A DNA stretch of 64,000 nucleotides from Sporomusaceae bacterium. Lineage in GTDB: Bacteria > Bacillota > Negativicutes > Acidaminococcales > JAJUGR01. This document shows, piece after piece, positions 40,323 to 42,381 of this stretch (within the stretch, counting starts at the first letter, position 1; every line of letters begins with the position of its first letter). The stretch is taken from assembly GCA_029265905.1 (NCBI GenBank), contig JAJUGR010000005.1, forward strand, positions 66,553 through 130,552, read 5' to 3'. The position numbers and the translations under genes are program-made. The notes beneath the pieces are model-generated. The model was not told the DNA's origin and made no database searches. It was given only the letters and a program-made list of their open reading frames with translations.

Positions 40323-40871
40323 TTATTTGTTGAAGTGCCTGTCCAGGAGGCCTTTGAACGCCGCGCCGTGGCGGGCTTCGTCCTTGCACATTTCATGCAC
40401 CGTGTCATGAATGGCATCGAGGTTCAGCTCCTTCGCCCGTTTGGCCAGCGCAAGCTTGCCCTGGCAGGCGCCGTACTCGGCGTCGACGCGCAACTCCAGG
40501 TTCTTTTTCGTTGAAGAGGTGACCACCTCGCCAAGCAGTTCGGCAAATTTCGCGGCATGCTCCGCCTCTTCATAGGCAATGCGCTTGTAGGCTTCAGCCA
40601 CTTCCGGGAAGCCCTCCCGGTCGGCTTGACGGCTCATCGCCAGGTACATGCCGACTTCGGTGCATTCGCCAACAAAGTTCATCTTCAGCCCTTCAATAAT
40701 TTGGGGGTCAACACCCGCGGCTACGCCGACTCTATGCTCATCAGCCCAAGCGAGGGCGGCAGCGGACTGCTCGATAAACTTGGCTGCCGGCGCCTTGCAG
40801 AGCGGGCACATTTCCGGAGCGGAATCGCCTTCATGAACATAGCCACAAATAGTGCATACATACTTTTTCAT
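40323..40871 (-). CDS. Reverse rubrerythrin (rubredoxin domain first)
   Basis: Rubrerythrins reduce hydrogen peroxide in anaerobes. In this 182-residue protein the rubredoxin domain is at the N-terminus (CTICGY and CPLCKAP, residues about 6-25), and the ferritin-like di-iron domain follows, with [18 protein letters not shown] and DEARHG motifs. This order is that of reverse rubrerythrins known from clostridia, not classical Rbr. An AGGAGAGA site lies before the ATG. A palindromic AT-rich element overlaps its likely promoter. The function fits an oxygen-sensitive lifestyle. Confidence 0.93.
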
Positions 40872-40924: not shown

Positions 40925-41044
40925 TCTCTCGCGATCAAAAATGCAAGTAAAAAGTTGTTTCCCTGCTGAATAATTTTACAAGCAGGAATCTGCCGTTTTT
41001 GCGCTTAATATATGGCTATGAAGAGCAGTAGAGGAGGTGTGGAC

Positions 41045-41617
41045 ATGTGGGCAAGGTGGTTGGTTCTACTGGCGGTGCTGTTTTTCCCCGTGCAAGCAAG
41101 GGCGGCAAGTGAACCTGTTTCGGTTTTTGACGCCCGCCCCATTTCAATCGTTATAGAAACGAGTGAGCGTCTGAGTCCGCCGGTGCAGGACAAATTGCTC
41201 GAGCTGTACCGATGGACTTTTCGGCTGCCCGCTTACGACAAACAGCCCTTCAGCGAACCGATAGCGCTGAAGAAAGGCTATAACCCGCTGCAGGATCGCA
41301 AGGGGAATATTGCCGCTGGGGCCGTGCGGGAGCATATGGCTAAAGCAAACTTGCAACGGCTGGTTTTATTGCGCATCGATGAGTTGAGTTCTTTTATTTA
41401 TCATCATTGGTCGATTTTTGATGAGGATGACGTCGAAATTGAGGAGGCGCGCGTGCAGGCTGTGGCCACATTGGTTGACCAGGATGGCCGTGTGCTTTTG
41501 CAACGGAAAATTCGGCGCTGGGAGCGGCGCGAATACACGGTTGACAGCGGGCCCGTCCCGCTGCTGCTGGAAGAATGGGAGCGATTTTTGAAAGAAGCGG
41601 GAACAACCAACAACTAG
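41045..41617 (+). CDS. Secreted protein of unknown function
   Basis: The 190-residue product has a clear signal peptide (hydrophobic residues 3-18, ending at QARAAS) and no further membrane segment. ATG 41045 is preceded by a strong GAGGAGGTG. The mature part mixes helices and strands, contains a TSERLSPPVQDKL segment and a WERREYTV segment, and has an acidic patch (DEDDVEIEE). I do not recognise a family. It is flanked by rubrerythrin in divergent orientation and by the NrdD-like gene. Confidence 0.75.
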   Translation: MWARWLVLLAVLFFPVQARAASEPVSVFDARPISIVIETSERLSPPVQDKLLELYRWTFRLPAYDKQPFSEPIALKKGYNPLQDRKGNIAAGAVREHMAKANLQRLVLLRIDELSSFIYHHWSIFDEDDVEIEEARVQAVATLVDQDGRVLLQRKIRRWERREYTVDSGPVPLLLEEWERFLKEAGTTNN

Positions 41618-41666
41618 ATATAGACAATGTTATTGGTTGTTTAACTAAATATAGTGCAACCGCCCC

Positions 41667-41695
41667 TTTACAGCGGAAAAACAATCTTATATACT
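41667..41695 (+). promoter_or_regulatory. Promoter for the NrdD-tail-like gene
   Basis: TTTACA (41667-41672), 17 bases and TATACT (41690-41695), 31 bases ahead of the GTG start. Confidence 0.75.
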
Positions 41696-41726
41696 AAAAA
41701 CAATCAAAACAGAGGGGGCGTTCGAT

Positions 41727-41999
41727 GTGCTATTTGAGTACCATGGTGTGCAGGTTATTCATCCCGACAATATGGATGAAATGGAAGCGAAAGAATATGT
41801 CGATGAACAGCTGAAGTTAATGCCGACAAAAATGTTGACACGGGTGGAGTTATCTTTCGAAGGCGATGAGGTGCTGATTCGTCCGCGCTACAATACCATC
41901 AACCGGGTGCGCCGCATTACCGGTTATCTGAGCACGATTAGCAAGTTCAATGATGCGAAAAAAGCCGAAGCGCATGATCGAGTTGCTCACGTGCTGTAA
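41727..41999 (+). CDS. Small protein resembling the C-terminal tail of anaerobic ribonucleotide reductase
   Basis: The 90-residue product starts at GTG after AGGGGGCG. Its second half, INRVRRITGYLSTISKFNDA and the following KAEAHDRVAHV, resembles the NrdD C-terminus, where R-x-C-G-Y-L carries the radical glycine and K/R-x-H closes the chain. Here the Gly is kept in R-I-T-G-Y-L while the usual cysteine is Thr. There is no cysteine at all, so the zinc site of full NrdD is absent. A stand-alone radical domain, like GrcA for pyruvate formate-lyase, is one idea; an accessory or decayed fragment is another. The family match is by eye. Confidence 0.6.
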   Translation: MLFEYHGVQVIHPDNMDEMEAKEYVDEQLKLMPTKMLTRVELSFEGDEVLIRPRYNTINRVRRITGYLSTISKFNDAKKAEAHDRVAHVL

Positions 42000-42029
42000 G
42001 CGGGCGCCGTTTTGACAATAAGCTGTGAG

Positions 42030-42065
42030 GAGGCTGTCTCAGTAAAAGGAGACGGCTTCTTTTTT
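42030..42065 (+). terminator. Terminator after the NrdD-tail-like gene
   Basis: GAGGCTGTCTC pairs with GAGACGGCTTC (two G-T pairs) around an eight-base loop, followed by six T residues. Confidence 0.82.
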
Positions 42066-42140
42066 ATTCGCGTGATACTTGTCACATCCAAGGCGTTCGC
42101 CCCTGCGATAAAATAATATTTGAAAATTTGCCCACGGACA

Positions 42141-42245
42141 GGCTACGGTGGCCGTTTTGCCGGCAACTACGGCAACGCCTGGCGGCTGCAGGACAAAGAG
42201 TTTGGGACGTTCAACGGACCGATCATGATGACGACCAACTGCCTC
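42141..42245 (+). pseudogene. Remnant of hybrid-cluster protein gene (hcp)
   Basis: A stretch of about 35 codons reads [16 protein letters not shown] and [10 protein letters not shown], closely matching the internal block of hybrid-cluster proteins (GNYGxxWQxQxxEFxxFPGPIxMTxNC). Upstream and downstream the frame no longer resembles the family, and no start with a ribosome site exists. The rest of the 42066-42424 interval holds nothing else I can name, apart from a small hairpin. I read it as the decayed relic of an otherwise lost hcp gene, with a deletion on both sides. Confidence 0.7.
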
Positions 42246-42381
42246 GCGACGTGCATCTTTCACATCGAACTGCTTCGTGCCCTCAATGCTGCGCGGCTGC
42301 TTCGCTTTAATCTTGAGCGCTGGCAGCCCGGCGGCGCGCGGCAGCCTAGGGGCGACTGGCGAAAATAAATGCAACTTTAAG

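Follow-up and report, generated by a model that had tools for sequence, protein, structure and literature searches.

A short gene on the forward strand, at positions 41727–41999 of the 64 000-nucleotide stretch analysed here (the window), was described in a first-pass annotation as a possible stand-alone glycyl-radical tail related to NrdD, the class III ribonucleotide reductase (RNR). This raises the question of whether such a tail could serve NrdD as a separate chain and, if so, whether it would act as a spare part for a damaged enzyme or as a subunit of it. The validated spare parts are only YfiD and Y06I of pyruvate formate-lyase (PFL), others having been called possible (PMC8683613).

The tail gene and its relatives

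The open reading frame of the tail protein runs from a GTG start at 41727 to a TAA stop at 41997–41999 and encodes 90 residues. A ribosome-binding site (GAGGGGG, 41712–41718, +) lies 8 nt 5′ of the GTG, and a terminator-like hairpin followed by a T run was found at 42027–42062 (+). A sigma-70-like promoter (TTTACA-17-TATACT, 41667–41695, +) matches the consensus at 10 of 12 positions and is weak when taken alone, since about one such match is expected by chance in the stretch.

Residues 57–88 matched the Pfam NRDD profile (PF13597) with an E-value of 1.7e-7 and 30.8 bits, above the curated cut-off of 26.2, and the match covered profile positions 532–562 of 562, leaving positions 1–531 unmatched. 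The NCBIfam model NF005497 matched at E = 7e-9, every NCBIfam match was an NrdD, and the radical loop aligned with the NrdD of the solved structure PDB 8p23. NRDD was the sole Pfam family detected up to an E-value of 10, and PF01228, the PFL/GrcA type, gave no match. Lack of NrdD similarity in profile searches had been named as grounds for abandoning the assignment to a stand-alone NrdD tail; both profiles instead uphold it. Residues 57–89 (41895–41993, +) thus correspond to the radical loop, C-terminal helix and end of NrdD (PF13597, TIGR02487). They contain the motif RRITGYL, with the presumed radical glycine Gly66 (codon 41922–41924, +), then a K-rich stretch and DRVAH, in agreement with the first-pass description of this half. 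The same description had the radical glycine kept and all cysteines gone, and indeed none of the 90 residues is a cysteine. The ATP cone, barrel, catalytic cysteine and zinc cysteines of NrdD are all absent from the tail, which has 90 residues against about 650–750 in NrdD. The missing zinc-site cysteines, to which attention had been drawn, are a real absence but need no special explanation, because NrdD, even in the shortened forms described below, retains the zinc site.

The N-terminal half (residues 1–56, 41727–41894, +) was said to be unlike the NrdD barrel, and a Pfam search gave no match for it. It has a strand-strand-helix-strand-strand arrangement, is specific to the family and is presumed to be a docking domain; a fold search against the PDB gave no significant match. 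The AlphaFold model had a pLDDT of 90–94 across residues 1–50 and low confidence in the glycine loop (pLDDT 61), a looseness that is expected because the partner is absent from the model. This domain is not universal in the family, since the tail adjoining the shortened NrdD of genome G746 spans only about 52 residues.

Tail orthologues were found in 17 of the 63 genomes of the order, in the majority of the families of the class and, with a patchy distribution, in the rest of the phylum; the counts for class and phylum are upper bounds, because the ends of full NrdDs were counted among the matches. A search with an alignment of Selenomonas-type tails located named carriers that include Mitsuokella, Selenomonas, Pectinatus, Anaerovibrio, Gordonibacter, Adlercreutzia, Anaerotignum and Ruminococcus, and viral contigs also carry the tail. 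Two matches in the phage collection (H1 and H2) were unannotated faecal scaffolds, and several genomes (G084, G091, G310 and others) have more than one tail gene. All 64 diverse relatives that were aligned match NRDD, and their 11 invariant columns lie, with one exception, in the radical-loop part. The window tail keeps all 26 columns that are invariant in the order. Variation of the glycine among orthologues would have spoken against a radical function; a profile of the N-terminal domain gave 208 matches and the glycine was kept in every one, 206 being flagged directly and two (one a partial match to the domain, the other with GYI) confirmed by eye. Conservation of the glycine is biased in the named and viral sets, which were partly fetched by C-terminal patterns.

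Host reductases, regulation and gene order

The 2.42 Mb assembly, 98.8 % complete, encodes one intact NrdD of 673 residues with an ATP cone, the zinc cysteines and the loop motif RRVRRITGYLS, flanked directly by NrdR upstream and NrdG downstream. Full-length nrdD and nrdG, whose absence from the genome had been proposed as a decisive objection, are therefore both present. A class II-type RNR match was also found. The catalytic chain of the host is of full length and bears its own glycine loop, so that the genome lacks the hallmark of a split RNR. With an intact NrdD and a class II RNR available, dNTP supply in this organism does not depend on the tail.

Two putative NrdR boxes precede the tail gene on the forward strand, CAACTAGATATAGACA at 41611–41626 (core 41614–41623) and TAACTAAATATAGTGC at 41642–41657 (core 41645–41654). 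They are offset by 31 bp, and their 15 bp spacer agrees with the 15–16 bp between boxes at most NrdR sites (PMC12051234), as expected of a member of the NrdR regulon. The pair was matched once in the window and never in 100 shuffles. In the whole assembly only two pairs were found, one before the tail gene and one before nrdR-nrdD-nrdG, and the reversed pattern, used as a genome-wide control, gave zero matches. The own-genome pattern was composed after the four boxes were known, so that what is informative is its restriction to these two places in the genome. Among other tails that are transcribed separately, the best spacing of boxes peaked at 31–32 bp in 36 of 112 cases, compared with 4.5 of 110 in a downstream control, and box pairs scoring at least 19 were common 5′ of tails and absent from that control. 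A smaller second peak at 41–42 bp, seen 5′ of tails at many loci, agrees with the long spacers of 24–27 bp of Streptococcus NrdR sites (PMC12051234).

An oxygen- or nitrosative-stress context had been read from the genes around the tail. An intact rubrerythrin with a rubredoxin-like N-terminus (40323–40871, −) and a fragment of hydroxylamine reductase, hcp (42120–42365, +; Prismane family, E = 2.7e-7 over 33 residues), are indeed present, but their value as a pointer to the role of the tail is small. The adjoining upstream gene (41012–41617, +) encodes a protein of 201 residues that begins like a signal peptide and matches no Pfam family, and the end of its reading frame is overlapped by NrdR box 1. 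Judged from these predicted features, the informative regulatory link of the tail gene is the putative NrdR boxes and not the neighbouring genes.

Operons with nrdG were found in relatives. The order shortened nrdD, tail, nrdG occurs in members of the Selenomonas-type family f20 (Pectinatus cerevisiiphilus and Anaerovibrio among them), and tail, nrdG in Selenomonas and Mitsuokella; an intact nrdD followed by tail and nrdG was seen in Anaerofustis stercorihominis and in one Clostridia MAG. On the viral side, five IMG/VR contigs (L324, L341, L353, L357 and L358) carry an nrdD without the glycine loop, the tail and nrdG in that order. Four others (L285, L289, L293 and L303) have the tail with no NrdD within the fetched stretch, which recalls T4 Y06I. 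In Eggerthella phage EL753P1 (OP172808.1, 2062–12172), the annotated nrdD is without the glycine loop, and its catalytic cysteine is the site of an intein-like insert; the tail lies about 360 nt downstream, and its frame is broken inside the radical motif in that record.

Shortened NrdDs in tail carriers

Of the 17 tail carriers in the order, an NRDD search found 13 with a shortened NrdD, against 0 of 46 non-carriers, contig-end fragments excepted (Fisher 2e-10, kinship ignored). The shortened proteins stop at about profile positions 529–540. Inspection of 12 of these ends placed the stop after the zinc site CxxC...CxxC and before the glycine loop, in some cases within the motif itself (...HERSRIT*); ends elsewhere were ...FERIHRITE*, ...RRVRKIIE* and ...RRVKKA*. 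A catalytic chain without the part borne by a second chain, as in a split RNR, was thus found in relatives of the window's organism. The tail was present in every checked genome with a shortened NrdD, its gene frequently standing between those of the shortened NrdD and NrdG. Among carriers, no shortened NrdD was found in the fragmented assemblies G020 and G060, and G000 and G062 likewise have a tail without one; the related genome G061 has the split form only. In family f20, all 19 sampled genomes had a shortened NrdD, and 18 of them had no other NrdD.

In 16 genomes (12 in family f20 plus G061, G087, G290 and G384), the shortened NrdD was the sole class III enzyme and no class I or II RNR was matched, so the split pair must supply the dNTPs there unless an RNR beyond these profiles exists. 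Columns in which intact NrdDs have a conserved cysteine, among them GCRT and three zinc-site cysteines, were 100 % kept in 41–42 shortened NrdDs, and other conserved columns were 97 % kept. From this conservation the shortened NrdDs look active.

The two chains also correspond in type. The NrdD motif NHP went with tail type VG/TG and NFP with the S type in all 59 classifiable pairs, and intact NrdDs end in the same type-specific way with one exception. In genome G102, two shortened NrdDs (C4:136076–137956 and 192867–194729) were found with one tail gene (C4:135726–135821), and a single radical tail may serve both reductases; G111 presents a similar picture.

On a quick tree of 85 NrdD cores, built with the trait left out, the intact or shortened state changed at least 11 times, 8 of these changes being forced by well-supported branches. 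The host NrdD fell in a clade of 100 % support, whose remaining members are seven shortened relatives and a further intact protein. Parsimony itself gives no direction, but repeated loss of the loop is far easier than repeated regain. Read in this direction, the loop of NrdD was lost repeatedly and only where the tail exists.

Proposed role, alternatives and significance

Taken together, the tail is very probably a separately encoded radical domain of class III RNR that works in trans with NrdD. It would dock on an NrdD whose loop site is vacant, that is, one without a working radical loop, after which the radical SAM enzyme NrdG would take a hydrogen from Gly66 of the docked tail. The loop would then enter the NrdD barrel beside the catalytic cysteine (GCRT), where ribonucleotide reduction would start. 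In the window's organism the site would be vacated by oxygen cleavage at the glycine and the tail would replace the cut-off loop; in the split lineages the vacancy would be permanent. As the host NrdD is intact, replacement of an oxygen-cut loop, as by GrcA/YfiD in PFL, appears the most likely use there, and by this analogy a spare-part role in the window's organism is reasonably likely. The earlier spare-part idea accordingly fits the host, with its intact NrdD, NrdG and predicted NrdR control, but not the many relatives whose NrdD no longer has a radical loop of its own, so that the tail is apparently obligate there. For Selenomonas, Mitsuokella, Pectinatus and others, an obligate subunit is the most likely reading of the tail.

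The readings that deny a split enzyme altogether can be largely set aside. The part of the tail that matches NrdD is only 32 residues long, as a chance likeness or a short motif common to unrelated functions might be, but with E-values of 1e-7 to 1e-9, NRDD matches in 64 of 64 diverse relatives, and regulation and operons common to the tail and nrdD/nrdG, we give this reading practically no weight; judged on sequence, the similarity is not due to chance. It is also very improbable that the shortened NrdDs reflect faulty sequencing or assembly, or are pseudogenes. Some of the genomes are indeed fragmented MAGs, but shortened NrdDs occur in the single-contig genomes G136 and G275 and in isolates of Selenomonas, Pectinatus and Mitsuokella, their conserved columns are kept as given above, and in many cases the cell has no other RNR. 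A chance likeness, an artefact of assembly and a pseudogene were thus all rejected.

Two further readings concern the window's organism itself. The tail could be a routine radical donor or regulator, acting with undamaged NrdD or in competition for NrdG, and could tune RNR under NrdR in this way. The common NrdR control of tail and nrdD and the loop retained by the host NrdD would suit such a role, and GrcA can reportedly restore inactive full-length PFL in vivo, to go by the title of Kammel and Sawers 2022 as cited in PMC12338860. Obligate use in relatives, however, indicates a tail able to work as a radical domain, and the spare-part model suffices without further assumptions, so we regard a routine role as unlikely. 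The gene might alternatively be a leftover of an ancestral split form whose shortened NrdD was lost, and now be functionless or decaying, as the combination of G000 and G062 with the split-only G061 could suggest. This is improbable given the 26 of 26 order-invariant columns kept, the intact predicted promoter, NrdR boxes, ribosome-binding site and terminator, the retention of tail plus intact NrdD in two families (f1 and f4) and in many families outside the order, and the existence of operons of intact nrdD, tail and nrdG.

The favoured function, a radical domain supplied in trans, has its closest parallels in GrcA/YfiD and phage T4 Y06I, which are likewise small proteins that join an N-terminal half of their own to a copy, at the C-terminus, of a glycyl radical enzyme's radical loop; the tail, too, occurs in viral contigs. 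As with GrcA/YfiD, the small protein stands beside an intact enzyme in the host, its gene is apart from that of the enzyme, and the partner is activated by a radical SAM enzyme. The tail differs in deriving from NrdD and not PFL, in its putative NrdR control, in the predicted folded N-terminal domain where the YfiD N-terminus is disordered (PMC8683613), and in a partner that lacks its own loop in many lineages, where the small protein appears obligate. The split class II enzyme NrdJa/NrdJb (PMC4520616, PMC9669993) also consists of two polypeptides with a separate C-terminal part, but it is cobalamin-dependent and, unlike the tail, its separate part is not a radical carrier. Excerpts of the RNR literature mention this split class II form and contain no mention of a split class III. 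Openly licensed PMC full texts yielded no account of NrdD as a split enzyme or of a spare part for it, and priority is thus not established.

We consider it probable that large groups of anaerobes and some viruses possess an obligately two-chain class III RNR with an exchangeable glycyl-radical protein, which was at first a spare part accompanying an intact NrdD, before NrdD lost its loop on many occasions. The tail of the window is a strong candidate for a spare part of an essential DNA-precursor enzyme; PMC8683613 left open whether such parts exist for glycyl radical enzymes other than PFL. The natural shortened NrdDs resemble the oxygen-cut enzyme and come with their partner genes, and the case suggests a route from repair part to indispensable subunit.
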